NCBI GenBank assembly: GCA_016867815.1
Contig: VGIR01000010.1
Coordinates: 1-54,986, forward strand
Length of the DNA: 54,986 nt
Source of the DNA: a candidate division WOR-3 bacterium
GTDB taxonomy: Bacteria > Hydrothermota > Tepidihabitantia > Tepidihabitantales > Tepidihabitantaceae
Reading direction: 5' to 3'
A program made the translations under genes and the position numbers. Positions 14,911-47,038 of this stretch are shown piece after piece (position 1 is the stretch's first letter; every line of letters begins with the position of its first letter). Below the pieces are notes generated by a model, which did not search any database, was not told where the DNA came from, and worked only from the letters and a program-made list of their open reading frames with translations.

Positions 14911-14925
14911 CGTAGACCTCACATC

Positions 14926-23650: not shown

Positions 23651-24811
23651 CTACTTCGTTCCGGGTGCCTGCAGGCCCCGCTCGGCGGTCGGCACAGTCA
23701 CTCCCGGCAGCGCGAAGTTGACCTGGTTCTTGAAGAACCCGACAACGTCGATCGCAGCCAACTCCGGTATCTTCTCACAGTAGTCCAGCGTGGCATCGGC
23801 GAGTTCGTCCGCTGCGCCCTTGAACGTCAGGTCGAACTGGCTGTAGTCCTTGGTTGACACCACTTCCATTTCGCCTCCGAACCGCGCGTCCGCTTTGAGC
23901 GCCTCCTTCAGCTTGCGCAGTAACTTGTACGAACTGGTGCCGTAGAACCTGAGCAGGTAGGGTTTGCCGTTGAGCAACCAGTCGCCGAGCTTCTGGTTCA
24001 TCTGGTAGAGCAGCTTGTCTCCGGCCTGCTGCATCGCCTTGTCCATCGCGCCCCGGGCGGCGTCGCCGCTGGAGAACTCGGTCGCGGGCTCGCCCTTGGC
24101 AACGGCCGCTCCCATGCCTTCAGCGGTGTAGGTGTCGTAGGCCTTGATGTCAACCGTCGCCTCGGCGGAGACAATCCCGCCCACGCCCATGTCCCGCTCC
24201 GGGACCACGACCCGCGACAGCTCCCAGAACACGGGGACGTTGGCGTCCACCGCCATCTGCTGCGCCACGGTCAGCGGCTGAGTCGTGTCCGGGAACAGCT
24301 TCCGCGCCTCTTCCTTCAGCCGGTCGAAGACCGAGCGCTCGACATAGCGAAGCCGGTTGCGCGACAGGAACTCGTTGGCGCGGTCGTAGGCGTAGTCGTA
24401 GTTCTCGACCGCCCTGGGCGTCGTAACGCTGCGGAAGTCATACCAGACCATGATCCGAAACCCGCCCAGGCCGCTCTGCAGGCTCTTGGCATCGGCCGCC
24501 AGCGGTGACTTGGAGACGTTCGCCCGGATCTGCACTTCGAAGCGGTCGGCAAGCGGGGTTTCCTCAATCACCTCGTAGTTCGCTATGTACCCGCTCGCCC
24601 GGCTCTGCACGATGTCCTTGATGACCATGTAGTCCTGCATCTCGGTCACGCCGACAACCGCCGCCCCCAGCGCCTGCTCGACCGCGCTGCGTTTGGCGTC
24701 TTCGATCGCCTGAGTCCGGTCCGGCCCTGTTCCCTTCACCTCGACCGGTACCAGGTCCTGCGCCAGCGCCAGGCAGGCGAGCGTCATCAGGCAAAACAAC
24801 AGCTTTCTCAT
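23651..24811 (-). CDS. Exported FlgT/LPP20-like protein
   Basis: 386 residues with a signal peptide (RKLLFCLMTLACLALA). The mature N-terminus has EVKGTGPDRTQAIEDAKRSA and VEQALGAAVVGVTEM, as in FlgT N-terminal and LPP20 domains that occur in envelope assemblies. DNRLRYVERS-like and FWELSRVVV strands in the middle recall the CsgG-like second domain of FlgT, and VSAEATVDIKAYDTYTAEGM fits the same fold. No flagellar genes are present. AAGGAGAG precedes the ATG. A periplasmic role in the caspase cluster is inferred from position only. Confidence 0.65.
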   Translation of the reverse strand: MRKLLFCLMTLACLALAQDLVPVEVKGTGPDRTQAIEDAKRSAVEQALGAAVVGVTEMQDYMVIKDIVQSRASGYIANYEVIEETPLADRFEVQIRANVSKSPLAADAKSLQSGLGGFRIMVWYDFRSVTTPRAVENYDYAYDRANEFLSRNRLRYVERSVFDRLKEEARKLFPDTTQPLTVAQQMAVDANVPVFWELSRVVVPERDMGVGGIVSAEATVDIKAYDTYTAEGMGAAVAKGEPATEFSSGDAARGAMDKAMQQAGDKLLYQMNQKLGDWLLNGKPYLLRFYGTSSYKLLRKLKEALKADARFGGEMEVVSTKDYSQFDLTFKGAADELADATLDYCEKIPELAAIDVVGFFKNQVNFALPGVTVPTAERGLQAPGTK

Positions 24812-24869: not shown

Positions 24870-25778
24870 CTACAGGAACAACGACACCGTCTTGCCGACC
24901 TTGAAGATGATATCCAGCGCCCGGTCCAGCCAGCTCACCTTCTTCACATCCTCGCGCGCGACCACCCAGCCCTTTTCCGCCGCCTCGAGCACCTTGATGA
25001 CCGTGGGATTCGTCAGCAGTTCCTTGTCGTTGAGGATGTCGGTCATGCTCTTGACGTACTGGAATTTCTTGAATGCCTCCGGCCCCAGCAGCTTGTACTG
25101 CTTGGCCATGTCCAGAAGCACGCCCCCGGTAGAGTCAAGCAGAGTCGGGAACATCTGCGGTTCAGTCTTGACCCCGCTCAGGTCAAACACGACACCGGAC
25201 AGGCTCTGGGCTCGCACCAGATCATCGTCGCTCAACGTTCCTTTGGCGGTGACCGGCTGCGGCTGGCCGTGGAGCTTGTCGGCAATCGGAGGCGCGATCC
25301 CGCCCGCATCATACATCGGCACCTCCATCGTCACCTCGACTCGGCCGTCCTGGGTCTCGCGCGGCTCACCGACCACGGTGGCGCCCTTGATCACGCCGTC
25401 AATCCTCGTGTACACGTAGTCACCCTTGACCATCAGGTCCTGAACCTTGGTCTCCGAGACAACGCGCACGCCCTTCACGGTTTCCAGCAGATTCCGCTGG
25501 GCGTCTACCTTGGCGCCCCGAATCGCCATCGCCAGGGCCTGCGCCCTGGGCTTGGCCGGGTCGATCACGCTCATGCCGGTGGCCTGGATCTTCTGGTAAG
25601 ACCAGTCAACCTGTCCCGGTCCGACCGGCTGCACGACCGGCGTGGAAATGGGACCTCCGCCCACCGGGGCTGCAGCCGGGGCCTGCCCTACCGGCACCGG
25701 TGCCACGCCGACCGAAGGCGTCGTCTGCACGAACGGCGCCAACAGCGCCAGCAGAACTACTGCGGATACACCAACCAT
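24870..25778 (-). CDS. Exported LPP20-family protein
   Basis: 302 residues with a signal peptide (VGVSAVVLLALLAPFVQT) and a Pro/Val/Gly-rich spacer to about residue 55. The LPP20-like core is PRAQALAMAIRGAKVDAQRN and LLETVKGVRVVSETKVQDLM, then VDG-type strands (GRVEVTMEVPMYDAGG). The C-terminal third is helical and ends in WLDRALDIIFKVGKTVSLFL. AAAGGAGG precedes ATG 25778. The 58-bp gap to the next gene is short repeat DNA. Function is unknown; a periplasmic structural role is plausible. Confidence 0.65.
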   Translation of the reverse strand: MVGVSAVVLLALLAPFVQTTPSVGVAPVPVGQAPAAAPVGGGPISTPVVQPVGPGQVDWSYQKIQATGMSVIDPAKPRAQALAMAIRGAKVDAQRNLLETVKGVRVVSETKVQDLMVKGDYVYTRIDGVIKGATVVGEPRETQDGRVEVTMEVPMYDAGGIAPPIADKLHGQPQPVTAKGTLSDDDLVRAQSLSGVVFDLSGVKTEPQMFPTLLDSTGGVLLDMAKQYKLLGPEAFKKFQYVKSMTDILNDKELLTNPTVIKVLEAAEKGWVVAREDVKKVSWLDRALDIIFKVGKTVSLFL

Positions 25779-25805: not shown

Positions 25806-26876
25806 CTACTCAACTATCCGGAAAGGGAAGAACTCGGAACCCCAGTTGTCGTCACCCAGGGCTTCGATCTTCTCGACCATCCGGTCCTGCATCTGCTTGT
25901 CCACGATGTACTTCTCAGACGCCACGAACTCCGAACCCAGCTCCTGCCGTGCCGCGATGGCCTTGACCCAATTGTAGCCGCCCGGTGCACGCGCTTCGAA
26001 CGGTCCGAGCGTGAACGTACCTGCCCCGGTCTTCGCGCTCTGCCCCTTCTGCGGGGAAAGCGCCGTCATGATCTTGTTGTCACCGTCCCAGCCGAGTATG
26101 TAGAGGAAACACGGTTGCTTGACCTCGACCCTCAGTTCCACCCCGTCGCCGACGGCAATCTCGCCGTTTGCCGGCACGACACCGCCTGATCCTGCCTCGA
26201 CCATACTCACGCTGCCGATCGCATCCCAGGCACCGCGGGCGTTCAGAAAGTCAAGCAGCTGGCTCGACATCTCGGTCGGAAGCAGGGCCTTCTCATCCTT
26301 CTGCCACCGCGCATACTCACCAACAGCGCGGCATCCGCAAGCCACGGCCACGTCCGCGCCGGCGCGGGGTACCGCCCGCAATGAGACGACCTCCAGCGAC
26401 CGGCTCTCCTCATCCAGATCATAGGTCGCCACGATTGCCCATTGCGCCTGGAAGTGCTCAAGCACCTTGACCGGATCGGGCCGGTTGACCATGTACTTCA
26501 TCTCTTCGTAGAAGGCCTTGGACCCGGCCTGCCTTTCGATCAACCTCAACCGCGTCCCACCTCTGGCCTTGAGCGCCGCCCCGAACCTCTCTGCCAGATA
26601 AGCACCCAGGCGTGACTCATGCTGGCTGGCGACCGGCGTGAAGTTCAGAACCACGACGCTGGCCGTATCCGGCAAACGGCTCATCACCTGCCGTGCCATC
26701 TCGACCATGCCTGCCTCCAACGTGCACGTCGGCCCCGGAGCCGCGCCGGGACCCGATCGTACTGCCGCCCTCGGAGCGCAGAGTATCAAGGCACTCGCCA
26801 AGGCTGCCAGACAGGCAGTAGCTGCTCCCCGTCGCACGCTGGACCACAGGACCACTCGACCACTAGACCACTTCAC
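25806..26876 (-). CDS. CsgG/FlgO-like protein with C-terminal DUF4384 domain
   Basis: 356 residues. GTG 26876 follows GAGGTG and overlaps the region of the upstream stop. The first 16 residues (KWSSGRVVLWSSVRR) are translated ggtctagtggtcgag-type repeats, followed by a signal peptide (CLAALASALILCAPRAA). The middle domain (SVVVLNFTPVASQHESRLGA, RFGAALKARGGTRLRLIERQ) resembles FlgO/CsgG nucleotide-fold-like periplasmic proteins. The last 120 residues (VGDGVELRVEVKQPCFLYIL, DGDNKIMTALSPQKG) match DUF4384, a domain often encoded with caspase-fold proteins. It directly follows the last caspase gene. Confidence 0.7.
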   Translation of the reverse strand: MKWSSGRVVLWSSVRRGAATACLAALASALILCAPRAAVRSGPGAAPGPTCTLEAGMVEMARQVMSRLPDTASVVVLNFTPVASQHESRLGAYLAERFGAALKARGGTRLRLIERQAGSKAFYEEMKYMVNRPDPVKVLEHFQAQWAIVATYDLDEESRSLEVVSLRAVPRAGADVAVACGCRAVGEYARWQKDEKALLPTEMSSQLLDFLNARGAWDAIGSVSMVEAGSGGVVPANGEIAVGDGVELRVEVKQPCFLYILGWDGDNKIMTALSPQKGQSAKTGAGTFTLGPFEARAPGGYNWVKAIAARQELGSEFVASEKYIVDKQMQDRMVEKIEALGDDNWGSEFFPFRIVE

Positions 26877-26879
26877 GTG

Positions 26880-28754
26880 TCACCTCAGCCTCAGGACTTC
26901 GCGAGTGGACGATCCGCGAACCACCGGCGTCTGGTCCCGATTATGCAGCCGGCCCGCCAGGTAGGAGACGTTGTCGCCAACGTACTTCTGCAACTCGGCC
27001 ACGGTAACTACCTTGTCTCTGTCCGCGTCGGCCTTGCCCCTGAGCCCATCCAGCAGGTAGTAGGTGAACAGGCTGTGCCGCTTCTCCGGGTACCATGACG
27101 ACACCTGGCTGCCCGATGACGACGCCATGAGAACAACGTTGTCCGGCACTTCCTTCGCTTCCGGCTCGACGGCGACGACCAGCGGCGAGGCGTTCTGAAT
27201 CAGCATCCCCTTCTCGAAAGCGCCCGAGAAACACGCCTCCAGCACGACCGTCATGCTCCGGGCCGGAACCTTGGACAGATTGTCATAGAACGTGCTGAGC
27301 GGGTAGCCCTGAAACTCGACGTAGGACGGGTTGGCATCCGCCGGCACGAGGTAGGCTTCCTTCGTCTTCAGGTCCGGCGCGCCGTGCCCGGTATAGTAAA
27401 CGAACACGTCCGACTTGCCCGGTTTCACCCACTTGAACAACTGGGCTTCCGGCTTGCCCCGAACCCCGAATACCATCTCCAGGTCAGCCTTGGTGGGATT
27501 CTCCAGGTAGATGATGTTCCGCTCGTCATACCCGAACGCCCTGACCAGATACTCCTTCACGGCCCGCCCGTCTTCCGCCGCGAACTCCACACCGGGCACG
27601 TCCTGGTATTGACTGACGCTGATGACCACTCCCACCGCGTCCGGCGCAGGTGGGGCGCCGACAAGCCCGATTGTGAGGCTGTCCGGCGCCGGGGCCGCTG
27701 TCTGGCTCTTAGGCGGTCCGGGTGTCGGCGCTGTGGCGACCGGAGCCGGCGCCGCGTACTGCACCGCCGGAAGGCCGGGAAGCAGCCGGCGGAACTCGGC
27801 CTCGATCTGCCGCTCTTCACCGGGCTTGAAACCGAGGTGGGTGTACGTGATGTCTCCGTCCTCGTTCCCAACCAGGAACGCGGTCGGGCAGACGCTGACC
27901 TTGTACTTCTGACTGACCTTGGCCTCAGGGTCCAGCAGCACGTAGAAAGGCCACTTCCGGCCGCGGGCCAGGGCCTTGACTGCTCCCGCATCACCTGGGC
28001 CGTCGGTCGAGATGGCAACGACCCGTGCCCCGTGGTCACGGAACGCGTCATGCAGAGGCGACAGGGCGTCCAGCGCGGCGATGCCGCCCGAGTCGGTCGT
28101 GTTCCAGAACACTATGAGCAGCAGGCTCTGCTTGAGCAGGTCGCGCATCTCGACCATGATGCCGTTCACGTCCCTCAGAAAGAAGTCCTCAGCCTCGGTC
28201 ACCAGGGTGGAGTCCGCCACCAGCCCGCGGTTGGTGCGTACGAGCCCGGGCAAGGCCTCGCGCAGCTCCTCCTCTACCTTCTGCAGGTCGGCGGGCTTGA
28301 AGCCGACGACGCAGTGGAGAATCTCTCCGTCCTTGTTGCCGATGAGGTAAGCGGTCGGGATCGACCGAACCAGGTACTTGTTCATGGTCTGCTTCTGCTG
28401 GTCGAGCAGCACGAGGAAGGGCCACTGCTTCTCGCGCGCCAGTGCCTTGACCCTTGCCTCATCTGTCGCGCCATCGGTCGAGATGGCTACGACCTGGGCG
28501 CCGTTGTCCCGGTAGGTGTTGTGCAACGACGCGACTGCGTCCAGCTCGGCGATGCCCGCCGCGCTTTGCAGGTTCCAGAACACCACATAGGCCAGCCCTT
28601 GGTCGAGATAGTCATCCAGGCTTACCACCGCGCCGTTGAGATCCTTCAGCCGGAAATCCTCAGCCTCGGTCAGACGCGGCTCCGCCGGCTGTGCGAACGC
28701 GGTGCCGACAACCAGCAGTGACGCCAACAGAACCAAGTGCCGAAAACGACTCAT
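26880..28754 (-). CDS. Secreted caspase-fold protein with two Cys-less thioredoxin domains (caspase 5 of array)
   Basis: 624 residues with a signal peptide (HLVLLASLLVVGTAFA). Two AhpC/TlpA-like thioredoxin folds follow (about 30-165 and 190-325). The positions of their CxxC motifs read FWNLQSAAG and FWNTTDSGG, so neither can do thiol redox chemistry. After a Pro/Ala linker comes a caspase domain (C14) with His457 in YYTGHGAPD and Cys508 in LEACFSGAF, then an EF-hand-like loop, DADRDKVVTVAEL. The protein is probably periplasmic or surface-exposed, with Ca2+ as a likely regulator; the substrate is unknown. The ribosome-binding site is AAAGGAG. It precedes the DUF4384 gene by 3 bp. Confidence 0.85.
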   Translation of the reverse strand: MSRFRHLVLLASLLVVGTAFAQPAEPRLTEAEDFRLKDLNGAVVSLDDYLDQGLAYVVFWNLQSAAGIAELDAVASLHNTYRDNGAQVVAISTDGATDEARVKALAREKQWPFLVLLDQQKQTMNKYLVRSIPTAYLIGNKDGEILHCVVGFKPADLQKVEEELREALPGLVRTNRGLVADSTLVTEAEDFFLRDVNGIMVEMRDLLKQSLLLIVFWNTTDSGGIAALDALSPLHDAFRDHGARVVAISTDGPGDAGAVKALARGRKWPFYVLLDPEAKVSQKYKVSVCPTAFLVGNEDGDITYTHLGFKPGEERQIEAEFRRLLPGLPAVQYAAPAPVATAPTPGPPKSQTAAPAPDSLTIGLVGAPPAPDAVGVVISVSQYQDVPGVEFAAEDGRAVKEYLVRAFGYDERNIIYLENPTKADLEMVFGVRGKPEAQLFKWVKPGKSDVFVYYTGHGAPDLKTKEAYLVPADANPSYVEFQGYPLSTFYDNLSKVPARSMTVVLEACFSGAFEKGMLIQNASPLVVAVEPEAKEVPDNVVLMASSSGSQVSSWYPEKRHSLFTYYLLDGLRGKADADRDKVVTVAELQKYVGDNVSYLAGRLHNRDQTPVVRGSSTREVLRLR

Positions 28755-28840
28755 TCGCGCTCCTTTCTCATCGCCGCTGACCTAGCGCCACATTCAGAAC
28801 TCATCATTCAGCGTTCTCCCCACTCCGCGCTCATCACTTC

Positions 28841-31441
28841 CTATCGCACCTTCCCCAGCCTTATCTCCCTCGCGGGCCTCAAGACCGGCACCTGCACCTC
28901 GTTCGTCGCGTCGGAGACGTTCTTCCTTACATAGTTGTACAGCTCGGTCGTGGTTACCCAGCCGTCGCCGTTCGCATCTGCCTTGCCCTTCAGGCCGAGG
29001 AGCGTGTAGTACGTGAAATACCCATGCTGTGCTTTCTCGAACTCCTTCGAAGGCTGGTTGCCTTCGGCAGCGGCAAAGGTTATCGCCTTGGTCTCCGGCA
29101 CCTCCGCTACCACCAACGGACGGGAGGCCAGTTGCACTGTGCGCCCTTCACCTGAGTAGCAGGCGTCGATGAAAACGACCACCGTATCATCCGGGTTGGC
29201 GCCGAGTTCGGCCAAGTCAGAAACAGGTATCAACGTTGACTTCAACTCCGGGTCGCCGTCGTAAGGCAGGACGCAGACGCCGCCGTTGCGGGGATTCTCC
29301 GGGTCAGGCACGCCGTGCCCGGCAAAGTAGATGACCTTGAACCCGTGCTTCTTCTTCAGCCAGTCAGTCAGCTTCGCTCGCAGTACGCTTCCCGTCGCGC
29401 GCTCGTCGAAGAGCGACTCGACCTTGCCGATGCCCATGGCTCGGCTTGCATACTGAGTGAATGCTGACGCGTCACTTCGGGCGTACTTCGGTGCTGTCAC
29501 GCTCAGGTACTTGGAGAGCCCGACCACCAAGGCATTTCCGGTTGGCCGCGAGATTCCGAACTCGGGGACTCCGTGGTCTACGTCCTCGACGACCTCAACC
29601 TGCGTCGCCGTCTTCTCTGCCGGGACCAGATTCAGCGTCAGTTCCGGTACTTCTGTTGGCGAGTAGCCGCGCCCCTCTTTCACTACGACCCGCAGCTTTG
29701 CCTGCCTGCGCTCAAGGTCGGTCGGCATCAGCAGGCTGAACGTCGCGGTCTTGCTCTCGCCCGGCTTGATGTCTTCGAGGTTCCTCTCGCTACCCCACTG
29801 CCGGGTCAGATACTCGTCGCCTTCAAGCACAACGCGCACCCACTTGGCAACACCCTTGCCATTGTTCGTCACCGTTACCTTCACACCCTCCTCACGTCCG
29901 CCGACGATTGTGTTGTTGCCGTCCAAAGGCGCGGCATCCAGGGCTAAGCTCGGCGGAGCTTCGCCTGCCGGCAGCGGGCCGGTTTCGTACGTACCGGTGC
30001 CTCCGCGAATTCGAATGAAGCTGATTGACTTTTCCGCGGACTTGCCTACCCAGTCGGTCACGGTGACCCCAACTGTATTGTCACCCATCAAGAGGGGAAG
30101 CGTGAAATCGCGCTCCGTCTCAGTCCGCTCGGAGAACTGCTCAGCGTCGTGTTCCTTGCCGTTCAGATAGAGCTTCATCCCGTCCAGCTTGCGGTCGTCT
30201 GAGAACCGCACCTTCAGCTTGACCGCCTCCGTGTTGACCGTACCGCCGGATGACGAAAGCGTAATCTGTGGTTTCGCCTTGTCCCAACCAAGGAAGTACT
30301 GCCTAACGTACTGCTGGGCCCCTGCCGCAGAAGTGACCGACTGCGATACTCGCTCACCGGTGTTCAGATTGAGAATGGTGACCGCGCCCGCAGCAAAGCT
30401 AGCTTGGTAGTCAGCATGTTCCAACGGGGTAACCGCAATCCAGTCTGGCAGCCCCTGCGAAGGAACCGCGCTGAGTGCGACTTTGACCATTCCGACGGAT
30501 GGTGCCGTTCGCATCGCGAGTGCTGCTCGCTCTTGGCGCGACTCACCCCATTCGGTCTTGTAGTCACAGACAACTTCCAGAGTCAAGTTGCCTCGCGGGA
30601 GGTCACCCAAGACCGCGATAGGGGAAGTGACCGACCTGGTCGCGCCTTCAGTGACGTTGCCGATGACGCCAACCGGGCTGACGCCCACAAGTGCGCCTGC
30701 CTCACCACTGAGTCTGGTAGTAACAACCACGTCTCTTGCTGGGCCATCACCCAAGTTGCGGATGAGCAGTGCGATTGCACTACGTTCATCTCCTGTGAGC
30801 ACACCATTTCCATCTTCGTCCTGCAGCTGCGCTGCTACGTCCAAACGAGCCCCGCGGGAACGACGGTAGCCTATCGGACCAAGGTATCTGAGCGCTCCGA
30901 GCGAGAACCCAGCGTAGAAAGCGCTTCCGGGAGTCTGACCACTTCGCAAGCTCCAGGCATGCCCCACCTCAACGCCAAGGCTTATGTACCAATTCAGCCG
31001 CATCTCCACCCCGGCCGTCAGTTCACTGGAGGGCAGCAGCTCGCCCAGACTGATCGGCAAGATTGAGTATCGGAGATACGCATTCGGCCCGCCTACGGGC
31101 GATGCATTTCCGATGAAGCCGGGTTCTACCCAGTGAATCCAGGGAATCCACCACAGGTGCAGCATCGGCCCGCCAGCCTGAAAGACGGTTTCGTCCGCTG
31201 TGACAGGCATCACACCGCCGAAGCCGGTGAGTCCAATTCCAAACCCGTACGGTTGTGGTAGGCCAACGTTCAGGCTCAAGCATTCCAGCGTGGCATTATA
31301 GCCTACCGAACCCTTAACCAGGCTGAGGTCGTACCAGCCTTTGGTCAGCACCTTACCGACGTCCGCCCCGTCGGCATGCCCCAGCAGGAGCGCACACAAC
31401 GCCGGTGCCAACCATCCGATCCGCATATCTCGTCGCCGCAT
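28841..31441 (-). CDS. Secreted caspase-fold protein with barrel-like N-terminus (caspase 4 of array)
   Basis: About 866 residues from ATG 31441 (frame open to ATG 31471). A signal peptide (RIGWLAPALCALLLGHADGA) is followed by about 170 residues of Gly/aromatic strands resembling a small outer-membrane barrel. EDGNGVLTGDE then introduces a CARDB-like Ig domain, followed by a DUF4384-like segment (WIAVTPLEHADYQASFAAGA) and further Ig-like strands. The caspase domain has His709 (YFAGHGVPD) and Cys761 (IDACYSGEG), then an EF-hand-like loop DANGDGWVTTTEL. The dyad is intact. The 86-bp gap to caspase 5 holds ttcagaactcatcattcagc-type repeats. Confidence 0.85.
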   Translation of the reverse strand: MRRRDMRIGWLAPALCALLLGHADGADVGKVLTKGWYDLSLVKGSVGYNATLECLSLNVGLPQPYGFGIGLTGFGGVMPVTADETVFQAGGPMLHLWWIPWIHWVEPGFIGNASPVGGPNAYLRYSILPISLGELLPSSELTAGVEMRLNWYISLGVEVGHAWSLRSGQTPGSAFYAGFSLGALRYLGPIGYRRSRGARLDVAAQLQDEDGNGVLTGDERSAIALLIRNLGDGPARDVVVTTRLSGEAGALVGVSPVGVIGNVTEGATRSVTSPIAVLGDLPRGNLTLEVVCDYKTEWGESRQERAALAMRTAPSVGMVKVALSAVPSQGLPDWIAVTPLEHADYQASFAAGAVTILNLNTGERVSQSVTSAAGAQQYVRQYFLGWDKAKPQITLSSSGGTVNTEAVKLKVRFSDDRKLDGMKLYLNGKEHDAEQFSERTETERDFTLPLLMGDNTVGVTVTDWVGKSAEKSISFIRIRGGTGTYETGPLPAGEAPPSLALDAAPLDGNNTIVGGREEGVKVTVTNNGKGVAKWVRVVLEGDEYLTRQWGSERNLEDIKPGESKTATFSLLMPTDLERRQAKLRVVVKEGRGYSPTEVPELTLNLVPAEKTATQVEVVEDVDHGVPEFGISRPTGNALVVGLSKYLSVTAPKYARSDASAFTQYASRAMGIGKVESLFDERATGSVLRAKLTDWLKKKHGFKVIYFAGHGVPDPENPRNGGVCVLPYDGDPELKSTLIPVSDLAELGANPDDTVVVFIDACYSGEGRTVQLASRPLVVAEVPETKAITFAAAEGNQPSKEFEKAQHGYFTYYTLLGLKGKADANGDGWVTTTELYNYVRKNVSDATNEVQVPVLRPAREIRLGKVR

Positions 31442-31562
31442 CCGAGTATCTCTCACCTGTAGAGAAGACATCTAGCTTTCGGGGAAATGGCTAAGGATTG
31501 CACGCTCAAAGTGACCTCGCCCTTGAGACGATACCGATTGCCGAGTCTTGTATGCGGGAAGC

Positions 31563-33563
31563 TCATCTAACCCTCGCCAATCGCACGTCGGCCCTCGCTC
31601 CGGTCGGTTGTGGGAGAAGTTGCGGCGACTGAATATACCCCAGCCGTTGCGACTCGTCAGCAACCTTCGGCTTGGCGTAGCTGTAAAGCTCAACGAGCGT
31701 GACCCAGCCGTCACGGTCGGCATCAGCTTCGCCGCGAAGGCCTTTGAGCAGGAAGTAAGTAAAGAGGCCATGCCGTTTTGCATCGAAGTCCTGGCTTATC
31801 TCGTTGCCTGCCGAAGCGGCAAGGACTGCCACGTTGCCGAGCTTCTGCGTTTCCTTCTCAAGGTCAACCGCCACGAGCGGCCGCTTGCCCTGCTCCATCA
31901 CGGAGCGTCCACCCGCGCCGGAGAAGCAGGCATCCAAGGCAACAACAACCTGGTCCGTCGGCAACGAGGCAAGGCTCGAATACAACCGGGACAGCGGGTA
32001 CAGCTTGGAGATGAAACCCGGCTCGCCGTCGTAGGGCACGATGTACGCCTCGCCTTTGTCCGGGCTGGGCGTGCCGTGCCCGGCGAAGTAGACGAACACG
32101 AACGAGCCCTTGCGTACGTTCCTCGCCAGCCACTCCTCGCAGTATGCGGTCAGGTCGCTTAGTGCTGCGCCGTCATCGACCAGCAGCTTGATGTTGCCTT
32201 CTTTGAACCCGCAGACGCTCGTAAGGTAGTCCTTCATCGCCTCGGCGTCCTTCCGCGCATAGGTGACCTTGGGCAGGGCCTGCGACCGATAGCCGCTGAT
32301 CCCGACAACCACGGCGTACGCATCGTCGCGCTTGAACGACGAAGGCTCCAGCGGCGCGTCCACGTCAACTAAGGTCGAAACGACCTGGGTCTCGCGCGTC
32401 ACCTTGGCCGGCTGCATGGCGACAATCAGCTCCTTCTCTTCCAGGGCATCAAACCCGTTCGCCTCCGACACGTGGATGATGATGTTGCCATTGTCTGCAT
32501 CAATCCGATTGGGCAGCGTCGCGTCGAACTTCGCTTCCTTTGTCTCGCCCGGTCCAATGTCGCCAATGGTTCGGCTCGTGCCCAGGTACTGCAGCGCCTT
32601 ACTCGTGCCTGTCAGCCTGGCTGCCACACCCTCAGCCACACCATCACCGAGATTGGCCACTTCCGCGGTCAGAATAACACGCTCCCCTCCTGAGAGCATG
32701 CCGTCTCCGTCGGTATCGGTGACCTTGGCGCGACACGTGAGGCGCGGCTGTTGCCGGCCGACGAGGTCACGACCGGCTGCGATTGCAGAGAGCGTGACCT
32801 TGTCGCACGCGAGTTGCGCCTTAAGCTGGTCCATCCCCCGTGCGAAGAGCGTGTTCCAGGCTGACCTGGCCCCCGACGGGGAATAGCCGCCGCTGACAAC
32901 CGGGTCTGAGGAGTACTTGGCTATCTGTTTCCCTTCCTTGTCAGAAATGACCATGTCGGCATGTGCTCTCGCGTTCACTCTGCCGATGGGAAGCAAACTT
33001 GCGGACAGGGTGGTAAGCAGCCCCGCCCCGAAAATGGTCCAGCCTGTTCTCGCCAGCTCGGTGTTTCCAGAATTCGAGGCATTTAGACCTATGACCTCGC
33101 CTATGACGAATGTTGGCAACCCGACGCCGACCCCCAACAGGAGCGGTCCTGTCGGGTTCCAGCGGTAATCCAGACCTGAGATACCGACCTTGACCGACAG
33201 GGCCTGACCGGAGTCTACGGCATTGACAAAGACGGTAGACGACAAGTCCGCAGCTATCGCCCGCTTGACGCTGGTCATGTCGAGCCCGTTGGCCTGTGCT
33301 TTCAGCGCGGCTGTCTGAGCGGCCCTGTCTTCCTCCTCCCACCAGCGCGGCCTGCCCGCGCCGGGACTGGTCAGTTCCACGTCTATCGAAGTGGGCGCCG
33401 TGACAGCCAAGCCAGGGACCGGAGATGGCGTGTACCGGACGACATGCAAACTCGGCCCGCAGCCCGCGAGCAACACGGCAAGCAACCCGCCGAAAACTGC
33501 GGCAAGGCGATACGGCGCGATCGCCTTCGACACTCGACTCTTCAGACAGCAATCACTAGTCAT
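31563..33563 (-). CDS. Caspase-fold lipoprotein (caspase 3 of array)
   Basis: About 666 residues. ATG 33563 was chosen over upstream ATGs because GGAGAAC precedes it and because the lipoprotein signal (LAAVFGGLLAVLLAGC) then sits near the start. Residues 40-230 form an unrecognised beta-rich domain with a hydrophobic stretch, LLLGVGVGLPTFVIGEVIGL. DTDGDGMLSGGE leads into a CARDB-like Ig domain. The caspase domain has His496 (YFAGHGTPS) and Cys546 (LDACFSGAGG), followed by the EF-hand-like loop DADRDGWVTLVEL. The lipid anchor distinguishes it from the other four. A gap of about 160 bp upstream contains cttggcggacttggcg repeats. Confidence 0.85.
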   Translation of the reverse strand: MTSDCCLKSRVSKAIAPYRLAAVFGGLLAVLLAGCGPSLHVVRYTPSPVPGLAVTAPTSIDVELTSPGAGRPRWWEEEDRAAQTAALKAQANGLDMTSVKRAIAADLSSTVFVNAVDSGQALSVKVGISGLDYRWNPTGPLLLGVGVGLPTFVIGEVIGLNASNSGNTELARTGWTIFGAGLLTTLSASLLPIGRVNARAHADMVISDKEGKQIAKYSSDPVVSGGYSPSGARSAWNTLFARGMDQLKAQLACDKVTLSAIAAGRDLVGRQQPRLTCRAKVTDTDGDGMLSGGERVILTAEVANLGDGVAEGVAARLTGTSKALQYLGTSRTIGDIGPGETKEAKFDATLPNRIDADNGNIIIHVSEANGFDALEEKELIVAMQPAKVTRETQVVSTLVDVDAPLEPSSFKRDDAYAVVVGISGYRSQALPKVTYARKDAEAMKDYLTSVCGFKEGNIKLLVDDGAALSDLTAYCEEWLARNVRKGSFVFVYFAGHGTPSPDKGEAYIVPYDGEPGFISKLYPLSRLYSSLASLPTDQVVVALDACFSGAGGRSVMEQGKRPLVAVDLEKETQKLGNVAVLAASAGNEISQDFDAKRHGLFTYFLLKGLRGEADADRDGWVTLVELYSYAKPKVADESQRLGYIQSPQLLPQPTGARADVRLARVR

Positions 33564-33722
33564 GTTCTCCGCTCTGCCAGTTAAATCGGTGAGATGCGCG
33601 CCGACCATCGGATGCAAAGGTACAGAAGGCAGGAAAGAGTCTGCTCACCTCTGCCTCGCCAGCACCCAGGTCTCTCCCGCAAGATGCGAGGGAATCTTGG
33701 CGGACTTGGCGTTCTTGGCGGT

Positions 33723-35978
33723 TCACTTGAGCCTTGCCAGGGCGCGGTTCTCGTCCCCCGAGAACGTTGGCGTCTGAATCCGGTTGTGCAGACGCTGCGC
33801 CCAGTAGGAGACGTTCTCGGAAAGATACAGCTTCATCTCGCCCATGGTGATGGTCTTGTCGCCGTTCTTGTCGGCTGCGCCCTGAAGCCCTTTCAGGAAC
33901 CAGTAGGTGAAAAGGCTGTGCTTCTTGTCCGCGTACCAGGAAGAGACTTGATCGCCTGAAGCCGAGGCCATGATGACGCCGTCGGGCAATTTGCCCTTCT
34001 CGTCCGCCACCTTGGGCACCAAGGGCGAGGCTTGCTGGACGATCAGGCCCTGGTCGTAGGCACCGGAGAAGCAAGCATCGAGCACGACCGTGACGCTCTT
34101 CGCCGGTATCTGGGCCAGGTTCTCGAAGAACGTGCTCAGAGGGTAGCCCTGCAGGTTGATGTACGACGGGTCAGCGTCGGCAGGGACCAGGAACGCCTCT
34201 CTTGTCTTCAAATCCGGCGCACCGTGACCGGTGTAGTAGACAAACACGTCCGACTCGCCCTTGCGCACATAGTTGTAGAGCTGGCCCTGAGCATTGCCCT
34301 TGATGCCGAAGACCCGCTCGAAGTCAGCTTTGCTCGGGTTGCGGAGCGATATGAAGTTCTCTTCCTTGAACCCAAGCGTCTTCAGCAGGTATTGCCGCAG
34401 TACGGCCGCGTCCCGCGCCGCGTAGTCAACCCTCGGCACCTTGTCGTACTCATACCCGGCCACGATGACCGCCACGGCATTGGCATTTACCGCCGCGCCA
34501 AAGGGCACGGCTACGTCCACGTCCGCTGTCAGCTCGGGCAGAGGCTGAGCTTCGGACTTCTGCTCAGTTGCCGGCATGGCGACTGAGATCTCATCCGGCC
34601 GCTTCATCTGCTTGTTCAGACTCAGACTGATGGTGTCGGTACGGCTGAACCGCGGTCTGCGTTCGGTGATGGCGACCGGCAGGTCGAATGACTGCTTTTC
34701 AATCCGCTTGTTCACGTATACCGGGACCACAACCTTCTTCCAGTCGCCCGCAGCTATGGAGCCGACAGCGGTATCGCTGGTGCCGACGAGCATCACGTTC
34801 TTGTCCGACGGCTCGCGGAATGTCACACGCACGTCATCGGCGTTGCCCGTGCCCTTGTTCTGGACAATCGCGGCCAGCTCGAAGGTCTCACCGGGCTCGA
34901 TGGTGCCGTTCGAGTTGCCCATGCTCTGGCCCTCTTCGTCGTCGTCCACGCCGGTCTGGGCAACGACAAGGTCCGGCGGGGAGAGACGCCGGGTCGAGAA
35001 CGAAAGCACCTTCGCGTCGGCATCGGCACCGAAGTACGGCTCCTTCACGTCAATCCGCAGCTTCACGGTCTGTGTCTCAACCTGCTCACCGGCGCTGACG
35101 GGTATCCGTACGGTCACGCTGTCGCCCTTCTTGACTGTCGGCACCTTAGTCTCGGCCTGACATTTGAGGTCAGCGTAGTTCTCCATCGGGGCTACATAAA
35201 CGGTCAGATCCTGCGCATCGCCCTTGCCGCGGTTCTTGACGGCCAGAGTTATCTCGCCCGTCTCCATGGCGTCGAGCACACCATCTGCCTCCCGGTCGGC
35301 GAACGACGTCCTAGTCGCCTCCAGAAATGGCGGCAGGCCGGTGGACAGCTCCTCGGTAATAGGTTCCGGTTTCGTGTCCGGCGCAAGTGCAGGGCCCGCG
35401 ACCGGCCCATTGACCCCGCCGGTCGAGGTCGAATCAGGAGGGACCGACCTCTTGACCGCTTTGGGTCTCGTGAACCGATAGGCAAGGCCGAATTGGGCTG
35501 ACGGATTATAGAAACTGGCAAGGCCGATCGCAAAGACGTTCTCTGCACCCAATGTCACACTCACTCGGTCGGACAGGCGTATTGGGTAGGTCAGGCCTAT
35601 CAAGGCAAGTAAGGAGTTTGTGACCGTGTCGCCCTGGACACTCGGAACGTAGCCATAACCAAACCCAGCTTCAACAACGCTAAATCGTGCCTTGGCCAGG
35701 CCGCCGGGCATGACGAAGGACATAGTCTGGTTGCCTCTGTGGACCGCGACCGGCGAGCAGAAACCGGCAAGGCCGAATCCGAGCTGCCCCCAGTACCAAG
35801 TAGGCCCGGCTGAAAGCCCGAAGCCCATCCTTTCCCAGCCATTCCAGCTAGCGTAGCCGATGCTGCCCTCAAATAAGAAGTCGGCTGCTGGGGCCGCGCT
35901 TGTCAACAGAGCAAGGCCGATCGTCCACACGTAGCGCAGGCGCACTCGAACCTTGGCTCGCACGCTTATTGAGGTCAC
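33723..35978 (-). CDS. Secreted caspase-fold protein with barrel and two Ig domains (caspase 2 of array)
   Basis: 751 residues. A signal peptide (TIGLALLTSAAPAA) is followed by a roughly 150-residue Gly/aromatic domain like a small outer-membrane barrel (FEGSIGYASWNGWERMGFGL). Two CARDB-like domains follow, each opened by an acidic loop (DREADGVLDAMETGE; DDDEEGQSMGNSNGTIEPGE). The caspase domain has His585 (YYTGHGAPD) and Cys636 (LDACFSGAY) and ends with the EF-hand-like loop DKNGDKTITMGEM. Its GTG start overlaps by 4 bp (GTGA) the stop codon of a deleted caspase gene relic. It is close in plan to caspase 1, which suggests duplication. Confidence 0.88.
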   Translation of the reverse strand: MTSISVRAKVRVRLRYVWTIGLALLTSAAPAADFLFEGSIGYASWNGWERMGFGLSAGPTWYWGQLGFGLAGFCSPVAVHRGNQTMSFVMPGGLAKARFSVVEAGFGYGYVPSVQGDTVTNSLLALIGLTYPIRLSDRVSVTLGAENVFAIGLASFYNPSAQFGLAYRFTRPKAVKRSVPPDSTSTGGVNGPVAGPALAPDTKPEPITEELSTGLPPFLEATRTSFADREADGVLDAMETGEITLAVKNRGKGDAQDLTVYVAPMENYADLKCQAETKVPTVKKGDSVTVRIPVSAGEQVETQTVKLRIDVKEPYFGADADAKVLSFSTRRLSPPDLVVAQTGVDDDEEGQSMGNSNGTIEPGETFELAAIVQNKGTGNADDVRVTFREPSDKNVMLVGTSDTAVGSIAAGDWKKVVVPVYVNKRIEKQSFDLPVAITERRPRFSRTDTISLSLNKQMKRPDEISVAMPATEQKSEAQPLPELTADVDVAVPFGAAVNANAVAVIVAGYEYDKVPRVDYAARDAAVLRQYLLKTLGFKEENFISLRNPSKADFERVFGIKGNAQGQLYNYVRKGESDVFVYYTGHGAPDLKTREAFLVPADADPSYINLQGYPLSTFFENLAQIPAKSVTVVLDACFSGAYDQGLIVQQASPLVPKVADEKGKLPDGVIMASASGDQVSSWYADKKHSLFTYWFLKGLQGAADKNGDKTITMGEMKLYLSENVSYWAQRLHNRIQTPTFSGDENRALARLK

Positions 35979-36061
35979 TTGAACCTCAGGATCTCGCCCG
36001 CCGCGTTACCCCGGATTTCGGGAACCTGTTCGCGCCCGAACAGGGCGCGGGCGACGAGCGG
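35975..36061 (-). pseudogene. 3' relic of a sixth caspase gene
   Basis: The minus strand reads VPLVARALFGREQVPEIRG and then NAAGEILRFK-stop. The C-terminus of caspase 1 is VPPIARHVYNREQTPEFRG then SADAVLLKVK-stop, a clear match. Only about 29 codons survive; upstream of them are short tgctgaac-type repeats instead of a gene. The TGA overlaps the GTG start of caspase 2. The simplest reading is that a full paralogue was deleted and its last codons were kept next to the downstream start. Confidence 0.75.
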
Positions 36062-36120
36062 AACCGAAGGCGGCGACGCTGAGTGCTGAACTATGCATGA
36101 CGGACACGGAGTGCTGTCGC

Positions 36121-38352
36121 TCACTTCACCTTCAGGAGTACGGCGTCTGCGCTGCCCCGGAACTCGGGCGTCTGTTCGCGATTGTACACGTGTCTTGCAA
36201 TCGGCGGGACCTGGTTGCGGACGTAGGCGCCTACTTCGCCCAGAGTGATAGAACCGTCCTTGTTCGAGTCCGCGTCGCCCTTCAGGCCCTTCAGGAACCA
36301 GTACGTAAACAGGCTGTGTTTCTTCTCAGGATACCAGGAGGCAATCTGGCTGCCTGTCGCCGCGGTCATGACGGTCGCGTTCTGGGGCAATTCTTCTGCA
36401 ACCGGTGCAATCACCAGCGGGCTGGCGTCGCGCAGGAGAGTGCTGACCTTGCCGGCGACGTCCGGCGTCTCGCCCGTGAAGCAGGCGTCAAGCACAACCG
36501 TGACACTCCGCGCCGGCATCTTGCCCAGGTTTGCGTAGAACGCATCCAGCGGGTAGCCGTTGATTTCGATGTAGTCCGGGCTCGCGTCCGCCGGCACAAG
36601 ATAGCCCTTCTTCTCCTTGATCGACGGCGCGCCGTGTCCGACGTAGTAGACAAACACATCGCACTGGCCCGGCTTCCGAGATACCAGGTTGAAGAGCTGG
36701 CCTTCGGGGTTCCCGGCAGTGCCAAATGTGCGCTCCAGATCGCCTTTGGAGGGATCGGCCAACGCGATGACGTTGGCATCCTGAAACCCGAATGCCTCGA
36801 CCAGATACCGGCGCATCGCCTCAGCGTCCTGCCGCGCATACTCCACGGCGGCAACGCTGCGGTACTTCGAGACGCCGACGACAACCGCGAACGCGTCCGG
36901 ATTCGCGGGGCCCCTCGGGATGTCGACCAGAAGGCTGTCGGTCAGCGACGGGGGCGTTGCCGGTGTGGCCACGCCGGGTCTGGCTTTTGGCTGGACCGCC
37001 ACCTCGGTTGGCGCCTGAACCTTGGTGTTCATCGGAATCTTCACAGACGCACCGCGGCTGAACTTCGGCCTCTGCTCGGCAATGCTCAGCGCGAGCTTCA
37101 CCGTATCCTCCCGGAACCGCGCATTGACGAAGACAGGGTACTTCAGCGTGCGCCACTCACCGGCCGGAATATCTCCCAGGTTCATTTCCGACTGTGGAGA
37201 CTGGTAGAGCACGTTCTGGTCGGACGGAGTGACCGTAACGCGCACGCCATACGCAGTGCCGATTCCGCGGTTCTGCACAATCGTGGTCACTTCCACTTGT
37301 TCGTTGATTTCGAGCTGGCCGTTGCCATTGCCCTGCGCCCACTCGCTCTCGGACTCGTTGTCAGTGATGGCGATATCGTACACGACCAGGTCCGGTGGCT
37401 CGATACTTCGAGCGACTATGTTGATAACGCTGGGAAACGCATCGGCACCGAACACTGGCTCTATGACCGACACGCGAAAGCGAATCTCCTGGTCTGGGAC
37501 ATCCTCGCTCGCCACTATCCTGACCTTCACGCGTGCGGTCTCCTGCGGCGCGATTGCAGGAACGATGACGTCTGCGCCAATGCTCACACCCTCGATGGTA
37601 GATATCGCTTCGGTTCGGACGCGCAGGCTATCCGCCCTGCCCTTGCCGGAGTTCGCAACGGCGACCACGATGAAGGCTTGCTCACCTGCGTCCAGCGCTT
37701 GATTCCGCCGGCCCGCTTCCTCGAAAGCCAGTTTGGTCTCAAGCCGAGGAGGGAATGAAGGCTTGGGTCCAGACCTCAGGGGAGCGTTTGCCACCTGCTC
37801 ATCGGCCTTCCTGGATGGGATAGGAGCCGGGGGTTCCGGTCTGACGGCCTTCCTCGGCCTGGTCATACGATAGACAAGGCCAAGCCGCGCCGACGGATCA
37901 TAGAAGCTGGCAAGCTTCAGCGGAAAGACGTTCTCGGCATCCAACTTCAAGCTCACCCGGTCAGTCAGTCGAATGGGGATGGTCAAACCAGCGGCCAGCA
38001 GCGGCGAACCAGTGCCGAAGTAGTAGCCATCTGCCTCGGTCGTGAATCCCGGTATGTACCCGTACCCGGCACCGACCTTGAAAACGCTGTACCGTACATG
38101 GGCCATGCCTCCGAAGTTCCAGAACGCCATGGACTCTCCATTCTTGGCAACCTTGGACTGCCCGAGCAGGAAGTCAACTCCCAGCCCGAACTGACCGAAG
38201 GTAAACGACGGCCCACCCGAGGCGGCGATCGAGTACCCGCCCCAGCCGTTCCAGTTCGCATAGCCGCCGCCAAAACCGGCACCGATGTCCACGTCAGCAG
38301 CCAAGCCGCACCCGAGCACTAGCAGCATCAGATAGACAGCCTTGGTCTTCAT
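36121..38352 (-). CDS. Secreted caspase-fold protein with barrel and two Ig domains (caspase 1 of array)
   Basis: 743 residues. A signal peptide (AVYLMLLVLGCGLAA) is followed by a small barrel-like Gly/aromatic domain (GGGYANWNGWGGYSIAASGG) and two CARDB-like Ig regions (AGRRNQALDAGEQAFIVVAV; AQGNGNGQLEINEQVEVTTI). The caspase domain has His573 (YYVGHGAPS) and Cys624 (LDACFTGETPD), and the C-terminus carries the EF-hand-like loop DSNKDGSITLGEV. AGGTGG precedes the ATG, which overlaps the upstream stop by 4 bp (ATGA). It shares its plan with caspase 2. Confidence 0.88.
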   Translation of the reverse strand: MKTKAVYLMLLVLGCGLAADVDIGAGFGGGYANWNGWGGYSIAASGGPSFTFGQFGLGVDFLLGQSKVAKNGESMAFWNFGGMAHVRYSVFKVGAGYGYIPGFTTEADGYYFGTGSPLLAAGLTIPIRLTDRVSLKLDAENVFPLKLASFYDPSARLGLVYRMTRPRKAVRPEPPAPIPSRKADEQVANAPLRSGPKPSFPPRLETKLAFEEAGRRNQALDAGEQAFIVVAVANSGKGRADSLRVRTEAISTIEGVSIGADVIVPAIAPQETARVKVRIVASEDVPDQEIRFRVSVIEPVFGADAFPSVINIVARSIEPPDLVVYDIAITDNESESEWAQGNGNGQLEINEQVEVTTIVQNRGIGTAYGVRVTVTPSDQNVLYQSPQSEMNLGDIPAGEWRTLKYPVFVNARFREDTVKLALSIAEQRPKFSRGASVKIPMNTKVQAPTEVAVQPKARPGVATPATPPSLTDSLLVDIPRGPANPDAFAVVVGVSKYRSVAAVEYARQDAEAMRRYLVEAFGFQDANVIALADPSKGDLERTFGTAGNPEGQLFNLVSRKPGQCDVFVYYVGHGAPSIKEKKGYLVPADASPDYIEINGYPLDAFYANLGKMPARSVTVVLDACFTGETPDVAGKVSTLLRDASPLVIAPVAEELPQNATVMTAATGSQIASWYPEKKHSLFTYWFLKGLKGDADSNKDGSITLGEVGAYVRNQVPPIARHVYNREQTPEFRGSADAVLLKVK

Positions 38353-39677
38353 CTCGCCACCTGAATGACGCGCAGACCCGTTAGGTTGTCAGCCACGTAA
38401 ACGAAGCTGCCTGATACCGCCACGCCGTGGGCAGTGCCCGGCGTTTCGCAGTACCCGGCCTCATACGGACTCTGCGGATTGCTCACGTCGATGACGCGCA
38501 GGCCTGCTTCGCCGTCCGCCACATACGCAAAGCCGCCAGACACCGCCACGCCGTAGGCAGTGCCCGGCGTGTCACAGTACCCGGCCTCATAGGGGTTCTG
38601 CGGATTGCTCACGTCGATGACGCGCAGACCCAAACCGCCGTCCGCCACATAGGCAAAGTTGCCGGATGCTGCCACTCCCCGGGCATTGCCCGGCGTGTCG
38701 CAGTGCCCGGCCTCATGGGGGCTCTGCGGATTGCTCACATCTATGACGCGAAGTCCCTCTGCATCATCCGCCACGTAGGCGAAGTTGCCCGACATCGTCA
38801 CGCCAGAAGCATAGCCCGGTGTGTCGCAGTACCCGACCTCAGAGGGGCTCGGCGAACTACTCACGTCGATGACGCGCAGACCTCCAGCATAGTCCGCTAC
38901 GCATACAATGCTGCCAGACACCGCCACCCCCGCGGCGTAGCCCGGCGTATCACAGTACCCAGCTTCATAGGGGCCATGCGGATTGCCCACGTCGATGACG
39001 CGTAGACCCCGAGTATTGTCCGCCACATAGGCAAAGCTGCCAGACACTGCCACTCCCCGAGCATTGCCCGGCGTAATGCAGCACCCGATCTCATAGGGGC
39101 TCTGCGAACTACTCACGTCGATGACACGCAGGTCCACAGCAGAGTTCGCTACGTAGGCAAAGCTGCCAGACACCGCCACTCCGCGGGCATTGCCCAGTGT
39201 GTCACAGAATCCGACCTCGCGCGGCAGAAGGGGACACGCGACGGCAACCGTCTGACCAGCAACGACCGACACCGTTTCGCCCCAATCGAGCTTGCCTGCG
39301 AGCTTCAGGGTCAATTGGTGGTCGCCGACAGGCACACTATCGAGACTACAATCGGTGGTCTCGCCAGTGCCGACCGCGTCGAGCCAGACTACCGCGCCGG
39401 TTGGGGTTGAGCTGACTTGGATTGAGCCGCGCCCGATGGCTCGGATGCTCTCGGGCGTGAGTCCGTTCTTGCAGCCGCAGAGGGATAGGACAAGGCAAAG
39501 CGTAACGAGCAGAACGCATCCGGTCAAGCTAACAACGGGCGACCGCAGGGAGGATAGTGCTGAACGATGGGTACTGAACAATGAACGATTAACTTGGCGG
39601 CGAGCCGGCGATGGTGAGCGACGAACGGCTGTCCGTCTACAACAAACTACCTGCGTACCAGGACTGAGTTCGGTCAA
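38349..39677 (-). CDS. PEGA plus LVIVD-repeat propeller lipoprotein
   Basis: About 442 residues from TTG 39677, behind GGGAGGT; TTG 39689 or a later TTG is also possible. The first 40 residues include translated gttcattgttcag repeats (VNRSLFSTHRSALSS) before a lipoprotein signal, VLLVTLCLVLSLCGC. A PEGA-like domain (GSIQVSSTPTGAVVWLDAVG) is followed by seven LVIVD repeats of about 42 residues (GVAVSGSFAYVADNTRGLRV type), which form a surface beta-propeller. It is the first gene of the caspase cluster and overlaps caspase 1 by 4 bp. The repeats are also nearly identical in DNA, which suggests recent expansion. Confidence 0.8.
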   Translation of the reverse strand: MTELSPGTQVVCCRRTAVRRSPSPARRQVNRSLFSTHRSALSSLRSPVVSLTGCVLLVTLCLVLSLCGCKNGLTPESIRAIGRGSIQVSSTPTGAVVWLDAVGTGETTDCSLDSVPVGDHQLTLKLAGKLDWGETVSVVAGQTVAVACPLLPREVGFCDTLGNARGVAVSGSFAYVANSAVDLRVIDVSSSQSPYEIGCCITPGNARGVAVSGSFAYVADNTRGLRVIDVGNPHGPYEAGYCDTPGYAAGVAVSGSIVCVADYAGGLRVIDVSSSPSPSEVGYCDTPGYASGVTMSGNFAYVADDAEGLRVIDVSNPQSPHEAGHCDTPGNARGVAASGNFAYVADGGLGLRVIDVSNPQNPYEAGYCDTPGTAYGVAVSGGFAYVADGEAGLRVIDVSNPQSPYEAGYCETPGTAHGVAVSGSFVYVADNLTGLRVIQVAR

Positions 39678-39798
39678 CAAACCTCCCAAGACTCGTAAGA
39701 ACCCCTTTGACCGTGGCGACGCAAGCGCTCCCGCGCGTCCGACTACACGACGGCAACCCGATCGGATTGAGCGGCTTTGGGCCGGCTCGGTCGAGAGT

Positions 39799-46966: not shown

Positions 46967-47038
46967 CAAGAGCCTCCAGTAGCTGGGAAGAGGTTCGCAG
47001 AAGCACGAAACGGCGCCCGGCGCGCCTTTTCACCCTAG

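Follow-up and report, generated by a model that had tools for sequence, protein, structure and literature searches.

Discussions of bacterial caspase relatives usually cast them as agents of cell death or phage defence that act in the cytoplasm. The window analysed here is one whole contig (C10, VGIR01000010.1; 54,986 bp) of a candidate division WOR-3 genome that is 95% complete, and in it five consecutive minus-strand open reading frames, hereafter genes 1 to 5, encode caspase-fold proteins that are predicted to be exported and that each contain an EF-hand loop. Among the described prokaryotic orthocaspases and metacaspases (MEROPS C14B), the orthocaspases are mostly cytoplasmic and are held to be Ca2+-independent (PMC5756287), and signal-like N-terminal helices are found in a minority of prokaryotic metacaspases (PMC3501461). 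A 2019 survey mentions seven archaeal orthocaspases with an EF-hand motif, although it does not describe them as exported, as a conserved branch or as carrying the motif within the fold, and it reports no prokaryotic paracaspases by the Pfam-Ig definition (PMC6426788). Cyanobacterial caspases are known as fusions to DUF4384 (23) and to FGE-sulfatase (39) domains (PMC8283722). We see an even chance that the present locus is an operon of exported, envelope-tethered clan-CD cysteine proteases with an EF-hand in the fold, which would be licensed by Ca2+, cleave after Arg or Lys and work with an outer-membrane partner complex.

The five proteins are genuine members of Peptidase C14. Pfam Peptidase_C14 (PF00656) matched all of them with E values from 4e-9 to 1e-16 (37-61 bits against a cut-off of 21.4), and the catalytic domain of about 270 residues is C-terminal in every case. 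The catalytic His and Cys are located at residues 457/508, 719/771, 514/564, 585/636 and 573/624 of genes 1 to 5, a spacing of 50-52, and their context is shared by all five, with a GHG histidine and a (D/E)AC(F/Y)(S/T)G cysteine. Each N-terminus carries a signal peptide or a lipobox; in gene 3 an internal ATG was judged a better start than the opening of the reading frame and exposes the lipobox. These results bear out the preliminary description of the locus, made from the sequence letters, as five consecutive exported caspase genes with intact His and Cys about 50 residues apart. The Pfam family, the intact dyad and the DACxSG and GHG motifs are common to orthocaspases and metacaspases, and the PDB sequence relatives of the window caspases are plant and yeast metacaspases. 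These PDB matches cover the p20 part only, the Pfam match extends to position 224 of 233, and the gene 5 model includes the small-subunit strands and helices. A separate p10 domain with the Ca2+-binding 280-loop would mark a type I metacaspase, and a p20-type domain lacking p10 an orthocaspase. Unlike the orthocaspases and metacaspases, the group in the window is, by prediction, exported as a rule, with an EF-hand in the alpha4-alpha5 connection, CARDB immunoglobulin (Ig)-like domains and outer-membrane anchors.

An EF-hand-like loop had been described as following each caspase domain. The loop itself was recovered in all five proteins as a canonical 12-residue EF loop with ligands at positions 1, 3, 5, 9 and 12 and a hydrophobic residue at position 8, starting at residues 576, 832, 632, 703 and 695 of genes 1 to 5, that is 61-71 residues beyond the catalytic Cys. 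When the C-terminal tails were shuffled, such a motif arose with a probability of 0.001 per tail, and all five together in none of 2000 shuffles. Its position was different from that described, since in the model it is inside the fold. The AlphaFold2 model of gene 5 has a predicted local distance difference test (pLDDT) value above 90 for most of residues 204-441 and 480-743, and in it the strand at 616-624, which ends at the catalytic Cys, is followed by a strand at 659-663, a helix at 681-693, the loop, a strand at 701-703, a helix at 704-723 and strands at 730-732 and 738-741. This modelled order is that of a caspase small subunit, with the EF loop in the place of the connection between the last two helices, and the predicted structure is a helix-loop-helix EF-hand within the caspase fold and not an appended domain. 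Structure prediction, which had been proposed as a check on the loops, thus returned an EF-hand in the one protein modelled, and its geometry is extended to genes 1 to 4 by alignment.

The best PDB match of the gene 5 model was the caspase domain of MALT1 (E 2.7e-11, template modelling (TM) score 0.70 by target), and metacaspases were also among the best. In MALT1-type paracaspases, too, Ig-like domains adjoin the caspase domain. However, the Ig-like domains of the five proteins are CARDB, DUF11 or NPCBM_assoc, a Pfam search gave no match to Ig, Ig_2 or Ig_3 in any of them, a death domain is lacking, and the EF loop and export are additional features. Paracaspase identity was rejected for the missing Pfam Ig domains.

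To find relatives, 84,980 species genomes were scanned with patterns of the GHG and FTY motifs, the EF loop being kept out of the recruiting patterns. The scan yielded 324 relatives, and 79 loci were kept, from WOR-3, Nitrospirota, Thermodesulfobacteriota, Myxococcota, Fidelibacterota, Bacteroidota, Elusimicrobiota, Ignavibacteriota, Nitrospinota, Cloacimonadota, Cyanobacteriota and Pseudomonadota. The catalytic His and Cys are invariant in the 72 aligned homologues, and the loop columns are D at position 1 in 68 (the others being gaps), N or D at position 3 in 66, D or N at position 5 in 70, I, V or L at position 8 in 68 and E at position 12 in 67. CARDB is present in 34 of the 72. An export-like N-terminus was found in 76 of 80 complete homologues, 28 of the 80 having a lipobox. 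In related WOR-3 genomes, 14 of 19 C14 proteins found by Pfam alone carry the loop, and four carry a shortened and degenerate form of it. The loop had been considered peculiar to this operon, a view that these counts replace with that of a mark of a broad family. It is not a general trait of C14, which was rejected because, among ten other C14 proteins from plasmids of Alphaproteobacteria, Cyanobacteria, Actinomycetes and Deinococcus, only that of Nonomuraea has it; the loop therefore marks a subset of C14. Four relatives from Fidelibacterota (Marinimicrobia; L081, L074, L085 and L107) are about 1100 residues long, and ahead of them stands a conserved lipoprotein (GCTSM) some 200 residues in length.

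The differing N-termini noted previously, a barrel-like region, CARDB, a lipid anchor and a Cys-less thioredoxin pair, were all found. AhpC-TSA/Redoxin matched twice in gene 1, and the CxxC positions of the two domains read NLQS and NTTD, so that they cannot be thiol oxidoreductases. CARDB matched in genes 2 to 5, in gene 3 below the threshold (E 0.037). A region of about 150 residues at the N-terminus is homologous between genes 4 and 5 (46% identity). Because this region of gene 5 had low confidence in the full-length model, it was modelled separately together with two relatives, giving eight long strands in a row at a pLDDT of 67.8, with disagreement among the five models. The top Foldseek matches were OmpA, OmpX, Ail and NspA, with TM scores up to 0.63. 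In addition, a free-standing protein of 215-234 residues lies close to a caspase gene in Nitrospinota, Nitrospira and one proteobacterium, and the neighbour set that includes these proteins contains three OMP_b-brl matches. From the moderate-confidence model, the Foldseek matches and these stand-alone neighbours, an outer-membrane barrel at the N-terminus of genes 4 and 5 is probable, not proven.

The phylogenetic tree placed the five genes in three lineages (gene 2; gene 3; genes 1, 4 and 5), for which reason simple tandem duplication of one gene was rejected. Genes 2 and 3 each join their own ortholog in G004, a genome of the same genus, and then proteins of Nitrospirota, Nitrospinota and Desulfobacteraceae, and genes 1, 4 and 5 fall with two caspases of contig C129, which belongs to the genome of the window, in a family-specific radiation (97% support). 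The ten members of this radiation have at least six kinds of N-terminus, namely barrel with CARDB, Cys-less thioredoxin pair, lipoprotein with CARDB, PDZ, TPR and AMIN. The search of related genomes, proposed earlier as a check, showed that G004 keeps the cluster with five caspases and with modules exchanged; its order is gene-5 ortholog, AMIN-caspase, a YhcG nuclease gene, a 34-codon remnant of gene 4, gene-3 ortholog, gene-2 ortholog and PDZ-caspase. Slots equivalent to those of the window thus hold PDZ or AMIN modules in G004, and TPRs are found in one family relative. In the gene-2 and gene-3 orthologs the catalytic parts are about 70% identical and the N-terminal parts do not align, so that the exchange of modules around a conserved catalytic part can be seen directly, in agreement with the earlier idea of interchangeable front ends.

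The YhcG/DUF1016 PDDEXK nuclease gene (L109 6041-7494) stands between two caspases of G004, immediately before the remnant of the gene 4 C-terminus, and is an apparent insertion or replacement. Gene loss is evident from a 26-codon remnant of the gene 3 C-terminus at L110 924-1001, directly before the cluster of G015, a genome of another genus. The two C129 caspases belong to a second cluster (L007 1134-5825), which adjoins uvrB and consists of two exported-type EF caspases with a PEGA/YVTN-propeller lipoprotein between them; the contig ends inside the first caspase. Caspase clusters are present in 2 of the 6 genomes of the genus.

The unit had been described as a five-member operon. The five caspase genes stand, but the predicted transcription unit is larger, spanning about 39689 to 23040, its genes being spaced by -4 to 159 bp. 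It begins with a PEGA/LVIVD gene, which shares 4 bp with the start of gene 5 and whose ortholog (59%) lies immediately ahead of the gene-5 ortholog in L111. Behind gene 1, FlgO/DUF4384, LPP20, FlgT-like and LpoB-like genes follow with gaps of 3, 27, 58 and 8 bp, and the order of these four is kept in G004 and G015. Promoter and terminator scans of the unit did not exceed the shuffled expectation and are uninformative on a single transcript. Within the family of the window, DUF4384 and close FlgT orthologs are confined to the three genomes with multi-caspase clusters.

In other phyla, caspase genes have a DUF4384 protein, often with an FlgT_N-like N-terminus, as their most frequent neighbour (24 loci); in this neighbour family DUF4384 was detected in 22 of 26 members and FlgT_N in 9. 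Comparison within the same loci gave 29 such proteins in 269 near genes versus 6 in 346 farther genes, an enrichment that is partly circular because the profile came from near neighbours. FGE-sulfatase characterizes the second commonest neighbour family (15 of 21 aligned proteins), followed by PEGA (8). DUF4384 and FGE-sulfatase, accessory domains of the cyanobacterial orthocaspases, thus recur here as neighbours. The caspase-partner links are backed by fusions, namely LVIVD-CARDB-caspase in L117, a caspase match inside a protein annotated as DUF4384 on a Deinococcus plasmid, and the cyanobacterial cases (PMC8283722). The PDB matches of the partners were FlgP/FlgT-type folds, which form outer-membrane rings in flagellates, and the FlgO, LPP20/FlgP and FlgT_N folds are those of the FlgO-FlgP-FlgT ring proteins of Vibrio and Campylobacter. 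In contrast to these, the genes here travel with caspases, and no Flagellin_N match was found in the genome, for which a flagellar role was rejected.

Taken as a whole, the five proteins are most likely periplasmic proteases that are tethered to the outer membrane and that Ca2+ stabilises or licenses. Passage across the inner membrane would use Sec or the lipoprotein pathway, and the barrel or the lipid anchor would hold the proteins at the outer membrane; CARDB/Ig or other modules, which may position the caspase domain or recognise partners, would present it to the periplasm. For OmpA, an eight-strand barrel with the C-terminus in the periplasm is established, and from this topology the caspase domain of the barrel-bearing proteins is expected to face the periplasm. 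Ca2+ in the periplasm is usually far above that in the cytoplasm, and licensing or stabilisation on export is therefore favoured over Ca2+ sensing. As long as the enzyme is in the Ca2+-poor cytoplasm, it would be inactive, its EF-containing half being unstable or inactive; once exported, Ca2+ would fill the loop, fold or stabilise the small-subunit half and render the protease competent. Cleavage would occur after Arg or Lys, as expected from the conserved Asp before the catalytic Cys and the Asp of the (A)RDA motif, which presumably are the counterparts of the acidic pocket in metacaspases and orthocaspases. The proteases would work with an outer-membrane complex, probably made up of the PEGA/LVIVD lipoprotein together with the FlgO/DUF4384, LPP20, FlgT-like and LpoB-like proteins. 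The acidic pocket has been discussed elsewhere (PMC6426788).

Several observations weigh against Ca2+-licensed envelope proteases. The export calls on the 80 homologues came from a simple hydrophobicity rule and not a trained predictor, and the barrel model, at the pLDDT given above, was built on three sequences. Gene 1 has LEACFSG in place of LDACFSG, that is E for the conserved D preceding the catalytic Cys. There is one loop per protein, with no second EF-hand in any of the five, and a lone unpaired EF-hand could bind Ca2+ weakly or merely stabilise the structure. Four exported caspase relatives (L021, L023, L027 and L028) have a degenerate loop (ADNGDxxLTWGE), shorter by about one residue, which indicates that Ca2+ is not essential in all relatives. 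Many secreted proteases carry permanently Ca2+-loaded structural sites, and the main rival explanation, which we regard as rather unlikely, is that the EF loop is such a non-regulatory staple, activity being set by the N-terminal modules or the partners. The usually high Ca2+ of the envelope, the lack of a pairing hand, the location within the fold instead of in a separate domain and the persistence of exported relatives with a degenerate loop would all suit a structural ion; near-complete conservation of the loop ligands over many phyla, and the fact that Ca2+ switches on metacaspases of the same family (PMC5756287, PMC7206013), argue for more than that. The one characterised bacterial orthocaspase considered here, MaOC1, is Ca2+-independent (PMC7475262), a further point against Ca2+ licensing.

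It appears improbable that the locus is a secreted system of conflict or self-destruction, for defence, fratricide or programmed death, with several paralogous proteases as effectors that answer to different triggers. Bacterial conflict systems often use caspases as effectors (PMC7159879), the distribution in the genus is patchy, a YhcG nuclease gene lies inside the G004 cluster, and all five proteins matched the PADLOC caspase model; these matches were weak and generic, and the PADLOC defence-system search gave nothing else. The best NCBIfam match of the window caspase domains was NF047832, of the EACC1-caspase two-gene conflict system, but the scores were 65-92 bits against a cut-off of 140. 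Moreover, the caspase is N-terminal there and C-terminal here, and the 5′ gene is PEGA/LVIVD and not the transmembrane EACC1, so that this system was rejected. The unit contains no NTPase, EACC1 or other defence component, every partner is an envelope lipoprotein-type protein, and the proteases are, by prediction, exported while those of known systems are not. We find it very improbable that the proteins are non-proteolytic caspase-fold scaffolds or adaptors, duplicated to build an envelope signalling or adhesion complex. The architecture is rich in Ig-like domains and pseudo-orthocaspases are known (PMC6426788), but the catalytic dyad does not vary in any aligned homologue.

Extending the reading of Ca2+-licensed envelope proteases beyond the window, we tentatively suggest, at less than even chances, that a widespread caspase branch of about a dozen bacterial phyla works outside the cytoplasm. 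An EF-hand in the small subunit would make it a Ca2+-licensed envelope enzyme, exchangeable N-terminal modules would dock it onto a DUF4384/FlgT/LPP20 outer-membrane complex, and operons would gather several ancient paralogous lineages into one panel. If so, the caspase family would have a second way of depending on Ca2+, with another structural basis, and its bacterial relatives an envelope role unrelated to cell suicide, and this would name the partner proteins (DUF4384 and FlgT/LPP20-like) of non-flagellated bacteria. In the open-licence literature we came across no account of exported caspases that form a branch with an in-fold EF-hand and DUF4384/FlgT partners, and nothing relevant on CARDB or LPP20 in combination with caspases.

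Table 1. Coordinates of the caspase genes, their EF-hand loops and the partner genes in the window.
Feature	Coordinates	Strand	Content or basis
Gene 1	26880..28754	-	Signal peptide, two Cys-less thioredoxin-fold (AhpC-TSA/Redoxin) domains, caspase with EF loop; 624 residues
Gene 2	28841..31471	-	Signal peptide, putatively barrel-like N-terminus of about 200 residues, Big_7-like and CARDB Ig domains, caspase with EF loop; 876 residues
Gene 3	31563..33563	-	Lipoprotein (LLAGC), CARDB-like, caspase with EF loop; 684 residues as opened at 33617, 666 from the ATG at 33563, to which the start was moved
Gene 4	33723..35978	-	Signal peptide, predicted barrel, two CARDB, caspase with EF loop; 751 residues
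Gene 5	36121..38352	-	Signal peptide, predicted OmpA-like 8-strand barrel, two CARDB Ig domains, caspase with EF loop; 743 residues
Gene 1 EF-hand loop DADRDKVVTVAE	26994..27029	-	Sequence motif
Gene 2 EF-hand loop DANGDGWVTTTE	28943..28978	-	Sequence motif
Gene 3 EF-hand loop DADRDGWVTLVE	31689..31724	-	Sequence motif
Gene 4 EF-hand loop DKNGDKTITMGE	33837..33872	-	Sequence motif
Gene 5 EF-hand loop DSNKDGSITLGE	36235..36270	-	Sequence motif and model, pLDDT about 96-98
Gene 5 predicted 8-stranded outer-membrane beta-barrel	37867..38298	-	AlphaFold2 model and Foldseek
PEGA domain and 7 LVIVD beta-propeller repeats, likely lipoprotein	38349..39689	-	First gene of unit; Pfam LVIVD E 8e-83, PEGA E 1e-9
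FlgO-like and DUF4384 protein	25806..26876	-	DUF4384 E 9e-6, FlgO E 0.02; equivalent slot in G004 and G015
LPP20/FlgP-like protein	24870..25778	-	LPP20 E 0.001; 78% and 58% orthologs, equivalent slot
FlgT_N-like protein	23651..24811	-	FlgT_N E 4e-6; 84% and 72% orthologs, equivalent slot
LpoB/GNA1162-like lipoprotein	23040..23642	-	LpoB E 0.011; 69% and 52% orthologs, equivalent slot

Other proteins of the window include a second clan-CD protease 5 kb from the unit (43406-46969, minus strand), a gingipain-type Peptidase_C25 with a C25 propeptide and an FlgD-like C-terminal domain. A BNR/YCF48-like repeat protein (13678-14922, minus strand) carries a Por_Secre_tail domain for type IX secretion sorting, which suggests a type IX-like secretion route in this lineage. 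An exported protein of 851 residues (19294-21849, plus strand) gave no Pfam match, and our impression from its sequence is of an M1-type metalloprotease-like N-terminus joined to a possible outer-membrane barrel.

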